From assembly GCA_937876775.1 (NCBI GenBank), contig CALEFA010000008.1, positions 1 to 48,843 of the forward strand: a DNA stretch of 48,843 bases, read 5' to 3'. Under the pieces are notes generated by a model. It did no database searches and was not told the DNA's origin. It saw nothing but the letters and a program-made list of their open reading frames with translations. The DNA comes from an uncultured Rhodobiaceae bacterium (GTDB taxonomy: Bacteria; Pseudomonadota; Alphaproteobacteria; RS24). Numbering within the stretch: the stretch's first letter is position 1; the number at the start of each line of letters is the position of its first letter. Positions 1 to 8,351 of the stretch are shown here, in pieces. The translations under genes were made by a program, and so were the position numbers.

Positions 1-270
1 GAACGCGGCTATCAAGTACAAAAATTCTTTCCCGCCAGCGCGATTGGCGGCAGCGCTGCGCTGAAAGCCCTCGCCGCCCCGCTTGCGAACATTTCATTCA
101 TGCCGACGGGAGGGATTAACGGCACAAATAGGCAGGAATATCTATCCCTGCCCAATGTGGTCGCTGTCGGCGGCTCATGGATGATTGATAAAGCCTCGGT
201 GGCGCAAGCCGATTGGGAACAGGTCACCCGTTTTGCACAGCAGCAAAAATCGTTAGACTCAACCAAATGA
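1..270 (+). CDS. eda: 2-dehydro-3-deoxyphosphogluconate (KDPG) aldolase, C-terminal part
   Basis: The window opens inside this gene; only the last 89 codons are present, ending in TGA at 268-270. The reading frame contains the family signatures KFFPA (Schiff-base lysine followed by the phosphate-binding FPA), MPTGGI and VVAVGGSWM, which mark the C-terminal half of class I KDPG/KHG aldolases. The enzyme splits KDPG into pyruvate and glyceraldehyde-3-phosphate, the last step of the Entner-Doudoroff pathway in the cytoplasm. Its stop codon overlaps the start of the PEP carboxylase gene (ATGA), so the two are probably translated together. The N-terminal half lies outside the window. Confidence 0.93.
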   Translation, partial: ERGYQVQKFFPASAIGGSAALKALAAPLANISFMPTGGINGTNRQEYLSLPNVVAVGGSWMIDKASVAQADWEQVTRFAQQQKSLDSTK

Positions 271-3101
271 CCGCTCCAAAGGTAAATGCCGCTTCTCTTC
301 GCCATGATTTGATGGGTTTTCTCGCCATGCGTGCGCAAGACCCGCACGCCAATCCAGCGAAATTATTAGCCTTTCGGCTGTCAGAGCATATTGCGACGGG
401 TCATTTGCCGCTCACTCAGTTGGAAGATATTCTGTGCGACCTTTGCCGAACCTCTGCCAATGCCCGTGGTAAGCGTTTGGCGGCGCGGGCTGGCGTGCCA
501 GAAATTAATGATTGGCAGCGCCAGTTCAAACGTTTGCTCAGCCATCAGGCTAAATTGGGCTTTGCCGCGTTCCGCAAATGGGCGGAAAGCGAAGCCATTG
601 GTCTGGTGGTCACCGCCCACCCAACTTTCGCCCTGACCCCCAAAATGCGCCAACGCGTTTTATCAGCGGCAGCCGGCAAAACGTCGCGCGGGAAACTGAC
701 CGCCGAAGACATTATCCGCGCCGAACCCCCCAGTCTGCAGGGCGAGCATAGGTTGGCGCAAGATTGCATTACCGTGATGCATCAAGTCATCGACCAGACC
801 AGCCGCCTTATTTTTGCGCAAGCAGCCAAAAGCTTTCCTAAAGACTACACAAAGCTCACCCCCAAACTGGTCAGCGTTGCCAGCTGGGTCGGTTATGATC
901 TTGATGGGAGGCGCGACATTCAATGGACCGACACATTCCGTTTGAAGCTGAGCGAGAAAGCCGCGAAACTGAGCGAATACTTAGCCATGGCGCAGGCCAT
1001 TGCCGATGGTTTAAGCGAAAGCGGCAAACCGATACCAGCTGGGCTTTCGCGCTTTTTGAGCACGGCTGAAAAAGCCGGAGCCGCTGCCAGACTGGAGCAG
1101 CAGGCCTTTGAAAAAGATCTGAACGACAAGGATAATTTAGTGGCGGCGGCTAATTTGCTGACCGGTGACAATGGCGATCGTTGGCTGGACACTAAGCCTG
1201 CGATCAGCCATTTGAACGCCGCCATTAAACAAGCGAGCCATCAGGCGCTTAAACAAGAGCTATTGGTCTTGCGCACGCATATCCAACGCGGCGGCATGGG
1301 GACGGCAGCTTTGCATTTGCGGGTCAATGCGCAACAAGTATTGCACGCCATGGACGCGCATGTGCCGATTACCCCTGACGAGAGGCTCAACTCGCGGACT
1401 TTCCTGCGGCGCGTCAGTAGCTATGCCGAGAAGGTCAAACCGGTCAGTACAAATTTTGCCGATCTTGATGCCGAAGAAAGCACCGTCAACAGACAGTTAA
1501 TCCTAGCCGCACAAATCGCCAAACATATCGACCGTTCTATGCCCATACGCTTCCTCATCGCCGAGTGCGATCAGGCCAGCATTGTGTTGAGCGCGCTGGC
1601 GCTGGCGCGCTATTTTGGCGTTGCCGATCAGCTCGATATTTCGCCACTGTTCGAAACCCCCAATGCGTTGCGTAACGGGGGGCGTGTGGTGGCGCAAATG
1701 CTCGAACAAGCCGCCTATCGCGCGCATGTGAAGAAACGCGGCGTCATTGCCGTGCAAACAGGCTTCTCCGACGCCGGACGCTTTATGGGGCAAATCGCGG
1801 CAGTTTTGGCGATTGAACGCCTACAGTCGCATTTGGCCGCTGCCATTGCCGATAGTCAGCTGACCGATTTACGCGCCATTGTCTTTAACACCCACGGCGA
1901 GTCGTGCGGTCGTGGCGGCCATCCCGGCTCGTTGAAGCAACGCGTGGATTATATTATGAGCCCTTGGGTTTTGGCCCGGTTCCAGCACCACAAGATTGCC
2001 TTGACCCATGAATTTAGCTTCCAAGGCGGCGACGGCTATTTATGGTTCGCTGATAAGCAAATTGGCGAAGCCGCGCTCATGCAGCTTTTATGCGCCCGCT
2101 TTCAACCGACTGACGATGCGCTGAACGATGAATTTTACGACGATGCCGATTTTGTCTGGGATTTCTATAATGAGGTCATCACCCAGCAAGATAGCCTGTA
2201 TCACGATGATGACTATCGTTTCATTCTCAGCGGTTTTGCTCGCAATTTCCTAATTCCGACTGGTTCGCGGCCAGAAATCCGCCAAGCAAGCGGGCCGATG
2301 GAGCAATCCACCTTTACCCCTCGGCGTATTCGTGCCATTCCGCACAATGCGATTTTGCAGCAGCTTTCACTGCCCACCAATGTTACCTTTGGGATAGGAC
2401 GAGCAGCACGTATTGACCCTAATCGTTTCAACATGATTTTCACCAAATCACCGCGTGGGCGCACGGTTTTAGATATGGTCTTGGGCAGTTGGCGCAATAC
2501 CCATTTGCCAGTGCTGGCCGCCTATGGTGATTTCCAAGACCCGAATTTCTGGATTTCGCGGTCAATATCTCAGGGCAATAACCCTGTGCGCTTGCAATAT
2601 CGCGTGGTCGCCCAACAGCTTTACAAACGCAATGCGAATGCAAAATTGCGGCAATTCCTCTATCGGTTGCGGGCCGACGGTGATTTGCTTGAAGGGGTTT
2701 TGCAAGATGCCGACGACAAAATCCAATTAGGGTTGTCAGCCGATGCAGATGTTGCGACGCAAAACCAGATTCTGTTTCATTGCATCCGACTGGCTTTGTT
2801 GATGCATGCGCAATTCACCTGCGCCAGCCTGCCTACCAATGCCCCCCCCGGCGCATCACGCGATGAGATTATGGAAAAAATTTGCAATTATGATTTGCAG
2901 CAAGTCATCTCCACGCTGGAGGCCAATTATCCGCCGCATGAAAGCGCCGACACATGGTCTCAAGCCTTGGCCGAAAGCGGCCTTAAGAGCAGCGCCAATC
3001 AGACCAGAGGCCATAAAGTCCTAGACAGCCTAAAACAATGCCAACGTCTGCTGCAGCTCACCAATCAAGGCTTGGTGCAGGCCTATAATGCTTATGGCTA
3101 A
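267..3101 (+). CDS. ppc: Phosphoenolpyruvate carboxylase, divergent type
   Basis: This 944-residue protein matches the PEP carboxylase family in length and motif order, which would make it the anaplerotic enzyme converting PEP plus bicarbonate to oxaloacetate. Visible motifs are VTAHPTF with the catalytic histidine near residue 118, LHLRVNAQQ, PLFETPNAL near 460, FNTHGESCGRGG at about 540-551 and IRAIP further on. Several differ from the classical forms (HPTE, LDIRQES, FETLDD, FHGRGGxxGRGG), so it belongs to an atypical branch, which I believe is widespread in Alphaproteobacteria. The ATG at 267 is preferred because it overlaps the eda stop by 4 nt; the in-frame reading to 213 would run deep into eda. 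It converges on the TPR gene, with one base between the stops. Confidence 0.85.
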   Translation: MTAPKVNAASLRHDLMGFLAMRAQDPHANPAKLLAFRLSEHIATGHLPLTQLEDILCDLCRTSANARGKRLAARAGVPEINDWQRQFKRLLSHQAKLGFAAFRKWAESEAIGLVVTAHPTFALTPKMRQRVLSAAAGKTSRGKLTAEDIIRAEPPSLQGEHRLAQDCITVMHQVIDQTSRLIFAQAAKSFPKDYTKLTPKLVSVASWVGYDLDGRRDIQWTDTFRLKLSEKAAKLSEYLAMAQAIADGLSESGKPIPAGLSRFLSTAEKAGAAARLEQQAFEKDLNDKDNLVAAANLLTGDNGDRWLDTKPAISHLNAAIKQASHQALKQELLVLRTHIQRGGMGTAALHLRVNAQQVLHAMDAHVPITPDERLNSRTFLRRVSSYAEKVKPVSTNFADLDAEESTVNRQLILAAQIAKHIDRSMPIRFLIAECDQASIVLSALALARYFGVADQLDISPLFETPNALRNGGRVVAQMLEQAAYRAHVKKRGVIAVQTGFSDAGRFMGQIAAVLAIERLQSHLAAAIADSQLTDLRAIVFNTHGESCGRGGHPGSLKQRVDYIMSPWVLARFQHHKIALTHEFSFQGGDGYLWFADKQIGEAALMQLLCARFQPTDDALNDEFYDDADFVWDFYNEVITQQDSLYHDDDYRFILSGFARNFLIPTGSRPEIRQASGPMEQSTFTPRRIRAIPHNAILQQLSLPTNVTFGIGRAARIDPNRFNMIFTKSPRGRTVLDMVLGSWRNTHLPVLAAYGDFQDPNFWISRSISQGNNPVRLQYRVVAQQLYKRNANAKLRQFLYRLRADGDLLEGVLQDADDKIQLGLSADADVATQNQILFHCIRLALLMHAQFTCASLPTNAPPGASRDEIMEKICNYDLQQVISTLEANYPPHESADTWSQALAESGLKSSANQTRGHKVLDSLKQCQRLLQLTNQGLVQAYNAYG

Positions 3102-3102
3102 A

Positions 3103-4398
3103 TCAGCCGTCGCCTTGTTCGGCTTCGCGATTTTTCTCTGCCAAACGACGCTCGATTGAACGGATCCAGCGAAACGCATCTTTGGCGAGTTCATCATCAT
3201 CGCCAGCTTTTCGGAAAGCTTTAATGGCTGAATCATATTGTTCAATGCGGGTGCGGGCGATGCCCAGCAACAACCAGCTATTGGCTTCATTTTCGAGACC
3301 GCCTTTATCAAGCGCTTTCACCAAAGCCGCCTCTGCCTTTTCCCACTCCTCGTCTTGCACATAAGACTCGGCCAGTTGAACATAAAACTTGCCCTTATCG
3401 GACATTTCGGCGGCGCGCGTCAGCGGCTCAATCGCATCAGACCACTCACGCGCATGCATATAGGCCGAGGCCAAGGTCTCATAGTTTTTCTCGGTCTTCT
3501 CAATGGTGCCGTTATCCATACCGACTTGCAGAATCTGCGCCGCTTTAATCGGCACATTGTGATACAGATACAACTGCGCCATCGACGATAATTCGCGGCT
3601 GGTGGTCAACATACCCTGCACATGCATGGCGCGCTGCGCAACAAAGGCCAGTTTCTCATCATTTAATTCATAATATACTGAGGTCAGATGTTGCCAAAAA
3701 GCCTTCACTCCTGGCCAGCGTTCTACGGCATCGACCAAAACCGGCTGCGCCTCTTTATAGCGTTCCTGTTGCAATAAAACCGAGAGTAACACCCTGATCC
3801 ATTGCTGCTTGGGCTCTTCAGTGCGCGACAAAGCGTTGCGAATGGCATCTTCAGCTGGTGAGAATTGATCCAGCGATAAATGTGCCTGAGCTTTCAAAGC
3901 AAACGCCTCGGCGGGTGGATCGCCCTCAAAGCCAGCAAACCATTTATCGAGCAATTCTATCGCCTTTTCTGGCCGATCTTCCGCCAGATTGAGCTGCGCT
4001 AAATTATAGCTCAGGCTATTGACCACGCGGGCAGGCAAATCGCCGGTGGCGATGGCACGTTCAAATGTGGCGATGGTCTTCGGGTAATCGCCTTGTCCGG
4101 CATAGACATAGCCCATGGTTTGAATGGCAACCGCTTTTTCATAGGGCTTAAAGCGATCACTATCGAGCATTGACTGGAGAACTTCGAGGGACTCGGCATA
4201 TTTTTCTTCGCCCAACAGGACTTGCGCCTCTTCAATACGATTGAAAGCATTTTTACCGAGCACTTCCGATCGCACGGTTTTTGGCTTTGACGGCTTTTCC
4301 TTCTTGGCGCTTTGCGCCTCGGCCACCTGCCAGCCAGACATGCTTAATGGCACAGCAAAAAGCGTCAAGGTTAACAATAGAGGGGCCAGTCGTTTCAT
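3103..4398 (-). CDS. Periplasmic TPR-repeat protein of the TonB2-type cluster
   Basis: A 431-residue protein with a Sec signal peptide (KR, then a hydrophobic stretch to about residue 20, AEA-Q cleavage-like site near 28) followed by repeated helical TPR units covering most of the chain (for example AVAIQTMGYVYAGQGDYPKT, and LLLGIARTRIEQYDSAIKAF near the end). The C-terminus is basic and charged. It is the last gene of a minus-strand run DUF3450, ttpC-like, exbB, exbD, tonB, TPR, 23 nt after tonB. A TPR protein in this position is known from extended TonB2 clusters, where it is thought to assist TonB-dependent uptake; its biochemical role is not established. It is probably exported to the periplasm. 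Confidence 0.85.
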   Translation of the reverse strand: MKRLAPLLLTLTLFAVPLSMSGWQVAEAQSAKKEKPSKPKTVRSEVLGKNAFNRIEEAQVLLGEEKYAESLEVLQSMLDSDRFKPYEKAVAIQTMGYVYAGQGDYPKTIATFERAIATGDLPARVVNSLSYNLAQLNLAEDRPEKAIELLDKWFAGFEGDPPAEAFALKAQAHLSLDQFSPAEDAIRNALSRTEEPKQQWIRVLLSVLLQQERYKEAQPVLVDAVERWPGVKAFWQHLTSVYYELNDEKLAFVAQRAMHVQGMLTTSRELSSMAQLYLYHNVPIKAAQILQVGMDNGTIEKTEKNYETLASAYMHAREWSDAIEPLTRAAEMSDKGKFYVQLAESYVQDEEWEKAEAALVKALDKGGLENEANSWLLLGIARTRIEQYDSAIKAFRKAGDDDELAKDAFRWIRSIERRLAEKNREAEQGDG

Positions 4399-4421
4399 CG
4401 CTTCATCCTGATTAAATCTGC

Positions 4422-5039
4422 CTATTTGGCAATCTCATAGCTGAATAACTGCCGCACACCATGGCGCACGGCTGGTTTGCCGTTTTCCACCATTGGGCGG
4501 TATTTCCATTTGGCCACCGCACGCAGGGCCGAGCTGTTGAACATACCCGGCGGATCAGCTTCAACCACCTTCGGGTTTATCGCCCTACCCAATTGGTCGA
4601 TTGAAAACTCCAACAGCACCCAGCCTTCTATGCCCCGTGATAAGGCGCGGCTGGGATATCGCGGTAACACGCGCACAATCGCCAAAGCGTCGCCATCAAC
4701 AGGCGCGTCTAAATTCATGCCACCCAAATCAAAGCCACTTAAATCGGCACTCATGGAAGCATTGTCCATATTCGGACGGCTGGCTTGCTGCAATTTCGGC
4801 GGCGGCGGCGGTTCATCGGGCTGTTCCTGGCTCGGTCGCTTCAAGGCCCGACCTTTGGTGTTGAGGTCTTCGTCGCGCTCCACCCGAACAAAATCAATGC
4901 CCAAAGACGCCAACTCTTCCTCGACTTCATAATTTTGGCCCGTAATCAGCACTTTCATGGTCAAAAACAAGGCAATCGTCGTTACCAGCGCCAAACCGGC
5001 GGATGCAAAAACCCGAAGATTGACCATTGCCAAAGTCAT
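4422..5039 (-). CDS. tonB: TonB family energy transducer (TonB2-like)
   Basis: A 205-residue inner-membrane protein with a single N-terminal membrane segment (about residues 9-31), a proline-rich spacer (PDEPPPPPKL near 74-83) and a C-terminal TonB domain containing YPSRALSRGIEGWVLLEF and the closing AVAKWKYRP stretch. It passes proton-motive force from ExbB/ExbD to outer-membrane TonB-dependent receptors. The spacer is short and acidic/proline-type rather than the long EPxKP spacer of classical TonB, as in TonB2 proteins. The start overlaps the exbD stop by one base (TAATG), which implies coupled translation. No receptor gene is nearby, so the substrate is unknown. Confidence 0.92.
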   Translation of the reverse strand: MTLAMVNLRVFASAGLALVTTIALFLTMKVLITGQNYEVEEELASLGIDFVRVERDEDLNTKGRALKRPSQEQPDEPPPPPKLQQASRPNMDNASMSADLSGFDLGGMNLDAPVDGDALAIVRVLPRYPSRALSRGIEGWVLLEFSIDQLGRAINPKVVEADPPGMFNSSALRAVAKWKYRPMVENGKPAVRHGVRQLFSYEIAK

Positions 5040-5440
5040 TATTTCTCTTCCGCCGCAATCGCAATCGAGCCAACGCCAGCCAAACGAACTTGATCCATTA
5101 CTTCAATCAAAGTGCCGGTTTGGGCGCCTTTATCGGCCTGAATCACCGCCCCGCCCTGCGGGTTTTCGGCGTGTAAACGCTCAACATTGGCGCGCACGGC
5201 AGCCAAATCAATCTGTCGACGATTAATCCAAACTTCATTGTTATTGCGAATGGCGATGAGAATCCCGACCCGCGATTGTTTCACGGCGGTCTCGGCGTCC
5301 GGCCGCGTCACATCAATGCCGCTTTCCTTGACGAAAGTTGCGGTCACGATAAAGAAAATCAGCATGATGAAAACAATGTCGAGCATTGGCGTCATATCAA
5401 TGGCTGTGTCTTCCTCTTGGCGTGTGTGTCTACGTCTCAT
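5039..5440 (-). CDS. exbD: Biopolymer transport protein ExbD
   Basis: A 133-residue ExbD/TolR protein. It has a short cytoplasmic N-terminus, one membrane helix (about 20-38) and a periplasmic domain. The helix begins with the family signature DMTPMLDIVF; Asp21 corresponds to the conserved intramembrane aspartate needed for proton-driven function. It lies 16 nt after exbB and shares one base with tonB. With ExbB it would form the proton-conducting motor that energises the adjacent TonB. Confidence 0.93.
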   Translation of the reverse strand: MRRRHTRQEEDTAIDMTPMLDIVFIMLIFFIVTATFVKESGIDVTRPDAETAVKQSRVGILIAIRNNNEVWINRRQIDLAAVRANVERLHAENPQGGAVIQADKGAQTGTLIEVMDQVRLAGVGSIAIAAEEK

Positions 5441-5456
5441 TTCCTACCCCTTGAGC

Positions 5457-6011
5457 CTAATCGGCCAATTCCAATTGGTCTTCGAGCTGCTCAACCGACC
5501 ATTCGGCCTTGCGTTCCAAACTTGATGCGAAAAATAACCCTGACAAAGCCACAACCATGCCGGCCATGGTCGGCAAAGTGGCTTTTGAAATGCCAGCAGC
5601 CATGGCGCGCGCATTTCCCGAGCCGGTAACCGCCATGACATCAAACACTTCAATCATGCCAGTGACTGTGCCCAATAGGCCAAGAAACGGCGCCAAAGCC
5701 ACCAAGACTTTAATATATGACAAATTGGCCGATGTTTTGAGTTTGGCGTCGGAGATAATCATCTCGCGAATACGCCGTGCGTTCCAGCTTTGGTGCTCAG
5801 AACGGGCTTGCCATTCTGCCAAACGCTGTTGCTTAAGCTGCTCAAAATCACGCCGCAGATAACTATAGCGCTCATAAATCAACGCCCATAGCACCAGCGT
5901 CGCCAACATGATGATCACCAACACATTGCCGCCCAGTTCGAGGAAGTCACGCACACCGCGCACCGCCTCAAAGGGGTTCACAAACAGCCAGAGAATTTCG
6001 CTAAATTCCAC
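5457..6011 (-). CDS. exbB: Biopolymer transport protein ExbB (ExbB2-like)
   Basis: A 184-residue MotA/TolQ/ExbB-family membrane protein with three predicted membrane helices. The first is near residues 27-46; the second and third surround the signature PFLGLLGTVTGMIEVFDVMA and the following glycine-rich GISKATLPTMAGMVVALSGL. It would assemble as a pentamer around the ExbD helices to make the TonB motor. It sits 12 nt downstream of the larger TtpC-like ExbB paralogue; such pairs of a long and a short ExbB protein are typical of TonB2 clusters. Confidence 0.92.
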   Translation of the reverse strand: MEFSEILWLFVNPFEAVRGVRDFLELGGNVLVIIMLATLVLWALIYERYSYLRRDFEQLKQQRLAEWQARSEHQSWNARRIREMIISDAKLKTSANLSYIKVLVALAPFLGLLGTVTGMIEVFDVMAVTGSGNARAMAAGISKATLPTMAGMVVALSGLFFASSLERKAEWSVEQLEDQLELAD

Positions 6012-6023
6012 TGTCCCGCTCCG

Positions 6024-7412
6024 CTATTTCTTCTCCGCATGCGCGGCAATCATGCCAGCGGCTTGCTCTTCGAGAACTTGCACGATTTCACGCGACCGCG
6101 TGGCCGCCACTGAATGTAGAAGCAATATCGGAATCGCCACCACCAAACCGAGCACTGTCGTAATCAGAGCCTGCGAAATACCGCCAGCCATGAGTTTCGG
6201 ATCACCCGTGCCGAACAATGTAATCGCCTGGAAGGTCAAAATCATGCCGGTCACCGTGCCCAACAGCCCCAAAAGCGGTGCCACGCCAGACAACAGTTTG
6301 AGCAAGGAAAGATTCTTCTCAAGAGCCGGCATTTCTTTCAAAATAGCGTCATCTAGTTTCAACTCCAGCGTTTCCACATTGGCCGAGCTGTTTGACTCAT
6401 AAGCCGCCCAAACCCGAGCTAATGGTGTGTTGCCCGAGGCTTGCCCGCTGGCCAGTTGCGTTTTCACGGCGCGCCCCGTCATGGTGAGCCGAACAATGCG
6501 TTCAATGGCTACGCCGACACCAAACAGGCCAAGAATAATAATAATATAGCCGACAAGACCACCTTGATTAATGCGCTCCGCCAGAGTTGGCATTTGCAAG
6601 AATAGGTTCAAAATTGCCCCGCGTGACGGGTCAACCGGTGCCGCTACCAAATCGCCAGCGTCGCCATCCAGCAAGTCATCAGCGGCATCCCCGAAACGGG
6701 CTGGTGGCTGACGACCGAGGTCGGCATAGCGGCCATTACCGGCGTAACGGACGAATTGACCGTCAGCCAAAGTGGTGAACGGGCCGACGCGCAAAATTTC
6801 CGCATTGCGCAATGAGCCGTCCAAATTAATCACTTCACCGGCAAACCGTTTAACTTCGCCCTGAGCGGTCATTTCTTGCTGCAAGGCAAACCACAAATGC
6901 TCAAGCTCTGCCATTGGCGGCAGGCCGGTGCTTTTGGCCAGCACTTCCAGACGGGCAGAACGGCTTTTCAACTCGCCAGAAATTGCGCTTTCGTCGACCT
7001 GCGCTTTGGTTTCGCCAGCGACTTGCCGAACAATACCGAATAATTCGCCAAACACGCCAAGGCGCTCATTCAACAGGCCCTCTAGTTCGGCCAGTTTCAG
7101 CTCATTTTCAGAAAAGTCTTTTTCCAATCGTTCAGAGCGTGCTTCTTCGCGTTTGATGGCGTTTCGTGTTTTCTTGAGAAGCGAGTCTTGTTTATTTCGA
7201 TTGTTACGAAACTCAGCCTCGCGGGCTTGAAATTCCGCATTATCGGACACCCGCCCCTGCCGAACCTGGTCAAGCAATTGTTGCAAAGTCAGCGTATCTG
7301 CACTGGCCACATCGGTTTTAGTATCCTGAGCGGAGAGCGGCAGCGTCACGGTCAAGGTCATGGCGAGAGCCAGTGTCACGGTGGCGATTGAATGTTTTAT
7401 TAGCGTTTTCAT
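6024..7412 (-). CDS. TtpC-like MotA/TolQ/ExbB proton channel protein with periplasmic coiled-coil domain
   Basis: A 462-residue protein. A signal peptide (to about residue 30, cleavage after SAQ) is followed by a charged, coiled-coil-rich periplasmic region (about 45-260). A C-terminal ExbB domain follows, with helices at GYIIIILGLFGVGVAIE and around the signature PLLGLLGTVTGMILTFQAIT. This architecture matches TtpC, the fourth component of TonB2 systems in Vibrio. In-frame starts exist at 7421 (GTG), 7418 and 7412 (ATG). I chose 7412 because AGGAG lies 8 nt upstream of it and only about 2 nt from 7418. It follows the DUF3450 gene closely and precedes exbB by 12 nt. Confidence 0.88.
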   Translation of the reverse strand: MKTLIKHSIATVTLALAMTLTVTLPLSAQDTKTDVASADTLTLQQLLDQVRQGRVSDNAEFQAREAEFRNNRNKQDSLLKKTRNAIKREEARSERLEKDFSENELKLAELEGLLNERLGVFGELFGIVRQVAGETKAQVDESAISGELKSRSARLEVLAKSTGLPPMAELEHLWFALQQEMTAQGEVKRFAGEVINLDGSLRNAEILRVGPFTTLADGQFVRYAGNGRYADLGRQPPARFGDAADDLLDGDAGDLVAAPVDPSRGAILNLFLQMPTLAERINQGGLVGYIIIILGLFGVGVAIERIVRLTMTGRAVKTQLASGQASGNTPLARVWAAYESNSSANVETLELKLDDAILKEMPALEKNLSLLKLLSGVAPLLGLLGTVTGMILTFQAITLFGTGDPKLMAGGISQALITTVLGLVVAIPILLLHSVAATRSREIVQVLEEQAAGMIAAHAEKK

Positions 7413-7423
7413 TTTCATCACTC

Positions 7424-8182
7424 CTATTGACCGACCAGCACCGGCACGACCAGAAGATCAGGGGCTGCTTGTTGTTTGGCAATCCGCAGGGCGGAACGCA
7501 GTTCGGAGTCAAAATCACCATCCAAGTCAACAAACCCATTAGCTTGCTGGCTCCAGGCGCCGCTCTCGTCAGCGTCCAGCGTTTGATAAATCAGCGCCAC
7601 CCGACCGATGCGCAGGAAGGCAACGGTGCGTTCTTCGCCGTTAACATCCATTTGCCCTTCATAGGCCTCAATCGTGCGGCCATATTCGTTTTCGATTTCA
7701 TAGGCTTCTAGGATTTTGCGATATTTCTCGGCTGGATTGGCGTCTGAGCGATCCATAAGGGCGCGCAAGTTTTGCACCCGCGCGCGACGCTCATCAATCA
7801 AGAACGGCACATCCAATTCAACAAATTTTTCAAGCGACTCAATCATCCGAAACATCAGCGGCACGATGGTCCGGTCGACATTGGTGACGTCTTCAATTTG
7901 CTGTCGAATGGAAACCATTTCGACTTTCTGCGCTTCGATGAGCTTTTCCAATTTGGCATTATACTCGCGCAAAGAGGCCAATTGTTTCAAAGCCGCGCGA
8001 TAATTGCGGGTCAGTTCATCGGTTTCATCATCGAGCAAGTCGACCCGTTCTTGTGAGGCCTGACCGTCCGACGTCGCGGCTTGCGCGACCTCGGTTACAT
8101 TATCAAGCGATTGCCCCAAAACTGGCTGGCTGGCGCACATCGCACCTCCCAACAGGGCGATTATCAAGCCGAAATTCTTCAT
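7424..8182 (-). CDS. DUF3450 family periplasmic coiled-coil protein
   Basis: A 252-residue exported protein with a signal peptide of about 23 residues (MKNFGLIIALLGG, then VLGQS), a central coiled coil and a C-terminal globular part. These match the DUF3450 family, which is found almost only next to TtpC/ExbB/ExbD/TonB/TPR genes. Its exact role is not known; a periplasmic partner of the TtpC coiled coil is a reasonable inference. The start at 8182 has a good ribosome-binding site (GAGGA about 6 nt upstream); an in-frame start at 8242 would add 20 residues in front of the signal peptide and is rejected. It is the first gene of the six-gene minus-strand operon. Confidence 0.85.
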   Translation of the reverse strand: MKNFGLIIALLGGAMCASQPVLGQSLDNVTEVAQAATSDGQASQERVDLLDDETDELTRNYRAALKQLASLREYNAKLEKLIEAQKVEMVSIRQQIEDVTNVDRTIVPLMFRMIESLEKFVELDVPFLIDERRARVQNLRALMDRSDANPAEKYRKILEAYEIENEYGRTIEAYEGQMDVNGEERTVAFLRIGRVALIYQTLDADESGAWSQQANGFVDLDGDFDSELRSALRIAKQQAAPDLLVVPVLVGQ

Positions 8183-8351
8183 TATAATCCTCAAAATTAA
8201 CTTTGGTTTATCTGGGCAAGCGTAACTTAGATTCGAAGCCACTCAACTGCACAAGTAAAACTCCCTGACGCAAAAGTGCAAAATCACCGCAAAAAATGTA
8301 GCGTCTTTAGAGGTTCAAGGATACGACAGCCACTCTCTTAGTCAACCTAAA

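Follow-up and report, generated by a model that had tools for sequence, protein, structure and literature searches.

The operon at positions 3103 to 8182 of the window (the whole 48,843-nucleotide stretch of DNA analysed) is best explained as the sole, generalist TonB engine of its host, equipped with coiled-coil stalks. The probability of this reading as a whole is put at about 0.8. A new observation is the single TonB_C match in 23 of the 28 genomes of the PS1 order, including all 15 that are near-complete (completeness of 90% or more, contamination of 5% or less); the five genomes without a match are 74–85% complete. TonB was counted by PF03544, and a TonB with a C-terminal domain of another family would escape this count.

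The draft genome (G000), with the window as its contig C8, totals 1.72 Mb in 80 contigs and is listed as 100% complete. The host, a marine bacterium with a small, streamlined genome, is a relative of the PS1-clade strain alpha proteobacterium IMCC14465 (PS1 placement according to NCBI), in agreement with the alphaproteobacterial background proposed in the first-pass annotation. In the genome collection used, the PS1 order comprises one family with 28 species, or genomes. OCS116-like is a working name for its sister family f49, where NCBI mixes the names OCS116 cluster, PS1 clade and Rhodobiaceae. No paper or experiment on the six-gene operon in PS1 bacteria was found in a literature search that reached few subscription journals.

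The operon is composed of six open reading frames of the minus strand (Table 1). The first-pass annotation had described it as complete, with short gaps, and the Pfam matches, with scores far above chance level for all six proteins, agree. The start codon of the DUF3450 gene is either the ATG at 8182 or an alternative GTG at 8242. The spacings, taken from the coordinates, are 2 nt (DUF3450-TtpC), 12 nt (TtpC-ExbB), 16 nt (ExbB-ExbD) and 23 nt (TonB-TPR), with a 1-nt overlap of ExbD and TonB. The order ttpB-ttpC-exbB-exbD-tonB-ttpD is present in all 15 complete loci of the PS1 order that were fetched. The proposed TonB2/TtpC-type identity is likewise borne out by the gene order and by the match of all six proteins to Vibrio campbellii. 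The TtpC protein has an ExbB/TolQ-like membrane part following a long periplasmic part, as expected of the TonB2 type, according to its structural model and Foldseek.

Table 1. Genes of the operon, listed in order of transcription (window positions)
Protein	Length (aa)	Position	Strand	Pfam match
DUF3450 protein (TtpB-like)	252	7424..8182	-	PF11932, 289 bits
TtpC-like protein	465	6024..7421	-	PF01618, 103 bits, residues 344-451
ExbB	184	5457..6011	-	PF01618 (MotA_ExbB), 85 bits
ExbD	133	5039..5440	-	PF02472, 109 bits
TonB, spacer contains proline	205	4422..5039	-	PF03544 (TonB_C), 62 bits
TPR protein (TtpD-like)	431	3103..4398	-	TPR families, up to 64 bits

The flanks of the operon vary from one PS1 genus to another. 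In the window, a gene for a divergent PEP-carboxylase-like protein (213-3101, 962 aa), which scores 79 bits against Pfam and 78 bits against a model whose cut-off is 815, is convergent with the operon and lies 1 base from its end, and a rhodanese gene flanks the opposite side. TonB2/TtpC-type systems are expected to be up-regulated under iron limitation; the upstream stretches of the operon in the PS1 genera do not align, and visual inspection of those listed revealed no conserved regulatory box.

The count of receptors and tonB genes suggested in the first-pass annotation gave three receptor matches and one TonB_C match in G000. This supports its proposal that the operon may serve several receptors, which is probably the case. 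It was also correct in noting the absence of an adjoining receptor: the window is without a receptor match, and the three in the genome are located on other contigs. A BLAST search, weak as it used three receptor queries only, placed receptors near the operon in 3 of 134 loci (duplicates included). The first receptor of G000 has a B12-receptor-like profile (255 bits, below cut-off) and adjoins genes for a FecCD permease, a binding protein and an ATPase. The second is of siderophore-type profile (121 bits, below cut-off). The third, with 537 bits (above cut-off), belongs to the Xanthomonas-Caulobacter type, and its neighbours, genes for a GH3-like glucosidase and a regulator of the LacI type, suggest sugar as its cargo. 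Genes that by eye resemble those of glucose catabolism also adjoin this receptor (G000:C1, L090:74-12314), and the region may be a small locus for beta-glucan.

Across the PS1 order, receptor matches range from 1 to 18 per genome. TonB and DUF3450 are on one contig, approximately 3 kb apart, in 18 of the 21 genomes that have both; in the remaining three, DUF3450 lies no more than 1.5 kb from a contig end. One TonB_C match was also recorded in each of the four genomes of the OCS116-like family. Among 20 other alphaproteobacterial genomes with the operon, two have one match and 18 have between 2 and 12. The state of a sole TonB is therefore typical of the PS1 order and its sister family, not of the operon as such.

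A second TonB was sought on contig C52 of G000, where the candidate, a 374-aa protein, was found to match VWA weakly and to lack TonB_C. This membrane protein follows an ExbB-ExbD-ExbD series and precedes a 779-aa protein for which Pfam gave no match (L092:2505-7570), in what resembles an orphan stator-like set. A fifth MotA/ExbB-like match of the genome (G000:C70:194454-194678, L094; 225-aa frame, 37 bits) adjoins two small ORFs whose starts are hydrophobic. Elsewhere on this contig, a stronger MotA/ExbB-like match (L007) is followed by an ExbD/TolR-like gene.

One of the closest known counterparts is the Vibrio TonB2 system (ttpB2-ttpC2-exbB2-exbD2-tonB2-ttpD2), which contains the same six gene types, also with ttpB first and ttpD last (Barnes et al., PMC6957404, available part). 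The TonB lengths are alike, 205 aa in the host and 206 aa in Vibrio. In V. vulnificus, all six TonB2 proteins, TtpB2 and TtpD2 included, have been reported as essential for siderophore uptake (PMC6957404, available part). Thus, the statement in the first-pass annotation that the roles of DUF3450 and the TPR protein are unknown was out of date, as TtpB and TtpD have already been tested in that species. By analogy with Vibrio, all six proteins may be needed here. The systems differ in that V. vulnificus has three TonB systems (same source), whereas the host genome has a single TonB_C match. A stretch of V. campbellii (L255), unannotated in its record and possibly ‘tonB2’ or ‘tonB3’, contains all six genes in the same order. 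Its identities to the host proteins, from DUF3450 to TPR, are 32, 37, 52, 52, 32 and 23%, with E-values from 2e-10 (TPR, 23% over 322 aa) to 2e-88 (TtpC).

The same six genes in order are found on the Alteromonas macleodii plasmid pBGP9 (L256), annotated there as DUF3450, MotA/TolQ/ExbB twice, ExbD, TonB and TPR, with identities to the host of 44, 47, 51, 69, 36 and 29%. Unlike the host operon, that of pBGP9 has a TonB-dependent receptor gene directly upstream. Its location on a plasmid is a possible route of spread in other lineages. The DUF3450 query returned 22 records from the plasmid collection, gammaproteobacterial throughout, and the TtpC query 24, gammaproteobacterial except for one Fusobacterium match covering 14% of the query. 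Teredinibacter turnerae has homologues of the six genes in its TonB2 and TonB3 clusters, likened here by their description, and possesses four tonB genes as opposed to one in the host (PMC10734418, available part).

The E. coli-type TonB-ExbB-ExbD system has the ExbB, ExbD and TonB_C domains in common with that of the host, which differs in adding three extra proteins. The transmembrane helix of E. coli TonB contains an SxxxH motif. This transmembrane motif was found in none of the 90 TonB proteins from these operons. The TonB proteins are short, with a median of 205 aa in PS1 and of 204 to 226 aa in the other groups.

The AlphaFold model of DUF3450 (pLDDT 80) consists of a 100-residue helix followed by short helices and a small beta domain. 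That of TtpC (pLDDT 85) has a periplasmic 99-residue helix and a beta domain, followed by a TolQ/ExbB-type membrane part; Foldseek matched it to TolQ/ExbB, with a best E of 1.3e-6 (TolQ). The order of elements is near-identical in the two, namely a long helix, two short helices, five strands and a helix, with three short helices (one of 4 residues) in TtpC where DUF3450 has two. Both models are monomers (pTM 0.51 and 0.55), compared by order of elements and not by superposition. Comparison of the profiles from full alignments gave an E of 5e-4 and an hhalign probability of 32%. When the profiles were sliced, the whole periplasmic parts gave an E of 0.02 (equalled by 1 of 100 column shuffles) and the beta parts an E of 0.002 (equalled by 0 of 100), while the coil part alone did not surpass the shuffles, 16 of 100 equalling it. 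DUF3450 and the periplasmic part of TtpC are thus probably related, with weak to modest support from sequence. No solved relative of DUF3450 was found: the sequence search reached an E of 0.011 at best, with matches of coiled-coil character, and the fold search 0.38. In a study of stator evolution, DUF3450 is mentioned as an appendage at the N-terminus of such subunits (PMC12505986, available part).

In the proposed mechanism, ExbB/ExbD, together with the TolQ/ExbB-like part of TtpC, would convert the proton-motive force into work by TonB. The C-terminal domain of TonB would then pull the plugs of all receptors. With one TonB_C match to 1–18 receptors, we infer that a single accessory-rich machine should drive the B12-like, siderophore-type and sugar-type receptors alike. 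The periplasmic domains of TtpC and DUF3450, each with a helix of approximately 100 residues (~15 nm if straight), may form a stalk. Together with the TPR protein, this putative stalk may position the short TonB or extend it across the periplasm. A more specific proposal is tentative and leans towards the doubtful. According to this, TtpB, TtpC and TtpD would be obligatory for all TonB-dependent uptake (B12, glycans) in the PS1 and OCS116-like groups, where they would belong to the sole TonB engine. In addition, TtpB and the periplasmic part of TtpC would be paralogous stalks that together make up a coiled-coil column of ~15 nm; the stalk anchored in the membrane would be fused to a TolQ/ExbB motor.

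Much of the Vibrio TonB2 work would suggest instead a system dedicated to one substrate, such as one siderophore, and the V. vulnificus study does concern siderophores (PMC6957404, available part). Such dedication is improbable here, as three receptor types occur in G000 with no further TonB_C match, and the TonB2 system of T. turnerae has been reported to serve both iron and carbohydrate, including growth on cellulose (PMC10734418, available part). The TonB3 operon of V. vulnificus also carries ttpB, ttpC and ttpD, and TtpB3 and TtpD3 were reported to be inactive in iron transport (PMC6957404, available part). The gene set alone is therefore no proof of iron uptake, and the inactivity speaks for an alternative in which the operon is a TonB3-like set that does not energize receptors but serves, for instance, the envelope. 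In that case no known TonB would be left for the 1–18 receptors of each genome, and this alternative is regarded as very unlikely.

The remaining alternative concerns the origin of the operon, which the first-pass annotation had suggested to be lateral transfer from gammaproteobacteria. The patchy distribution in the class is in line with this, with DUF3450 above the Pfam cut-off in 24 of 385 sampled genomes, five of the 24 being from the family of the host. Within the PS1 order, DUF3450 is above the cut-off in 22 of 28 genomes and in all 15 near-complete ones, which argues against transfer. A 90-row tree of DUF3450, TtpC and ExbB (quick search) was built from rows chosen by hand among 133 loci, with duplicates, fragments and some of the near-copies excluded; one further locus, L224, yielded no DUF3450. 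The 12 PS1 rows group together, join 11 OCS116-like rows and fall with them within a 43-row alphaproteobacterial group, each with an SH-aLRT of 99. In a more careful operon tree of 28 genomes, PS1 and OCS116-like are paired with support of 100/100, in agreement with the RpoB tree (100/98). RpoB was searched for in 30 genomes, of which 28 were kept (G022 had no match and G009 was split); the G163 row, with a total branch of 10 and probably a bad frame, was retained. Quick single-gene trees of the 28 genomes recover this pair in six of six cases (SH-aLRT 71-99) and PS1 as one clade in five, ExbD being the exception. The pair groups with ten other alphaproteobacteria in four of the six; the exceptions, ExbD and TonB, are compatible with transfer.

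Constraining PS1 with the gamma-type rows was rejected with a p-AU of 7e-5, where the four alphaproteobacteria in the gamma-type set were named post hoc from the tree. Earlier tests (p-AU 1.7e-46 for PS1 with gamma rows, 2.4e-77 for PS1 and OCS116-like with gamma rows) were confounded by these four rows. Transfers do occur in the class, as 4 of 48 alphaproteobacterial rows (L078, L159, L215, L217) are among the gamma rows of the 90-row tree. A fifth, L068, has a poorly settled position outside the alphaproteobacterial group there, and its genome groups with gamma-type rows in the 28-row tree. A single clade of the 24 alphaproteobacterial rows in the 28-row set was also rejected (p 7.5e-6), so that, taken over the whole class, the operon has multiple origins. 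At the level of the PS1/OCS116-like pair, the gene trees follow the alphaproteobacterial species tree and the operon does not nest with gamma rows against it. A recent import into PS1 was thus discarded, and transfer from a gammaproteobacterium to this lineage is considered very unlikely. Judged by these trees, which are unrooted and speak to relationships within the alphaproteobacterial group rather than to its deep source, the operon appears to have been inherited within alphaproteobacteria in the PS1 group.

The operon of G026 (L082/L097, G026:C58) is closer to that of the window's genus (94/92) than to that of its congener G006, and it also has the PEP-carboxylase neighbour seen in the window's genus. 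Contrary to this, RpoB joins G026 with G006 (100/100). Either exchange or misbinning of the contig (contamination is listed as 5%) would account for the conflict.

The first-pass annotation considered the gene set best known from gammaproteobacteria. Gammaproteobacterial counterparts do exist, but the operon also occurs in alphaproteobacteria, Myxococcota, Bdellovibrionota and others. All four named groups are represented among the best 80 of 569 confirmed stretches in a scan of named records, with single records labelled Acidobacteriota, Binatota and Spirochaeta. Across the phylum, DUF3450 was above the cut-off in 57 of 398 sampled genomes. The exact six-gene order is present in 83 of the 133 loci with DUF3450 (duplicates and cut contigs included), and 29 have two successive ExbD genes. 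All 15 complete PS1-order loci that were fetched and the complete OCS116-like loci have a single ExbD; most alphaproteobacterial loci beyond these groups have two. Tandem pairs of both ExbD and TonB genes were seen in the alphaproteobacterial operons L063, L069 (the same place as L145) and L072.

The known range, given as ‘vibrios and some marine bacteria’ (PMC10734418, available part), is thereby widened to alphaproteobacteria, Myxococcota, Bdellovibrionota and others. If TtpB and the periplasmic part of TtpC are indeed paralogous stalks that form such a column, TonB systems would have a second means of bridging the periplasm, one that replaces a long TonB spacer. PS1-type cells, which would have the extra proteins of TonB2 without a TonB1 backup, would offer a minimal case in nature for testing the role of these proteins cleanly.
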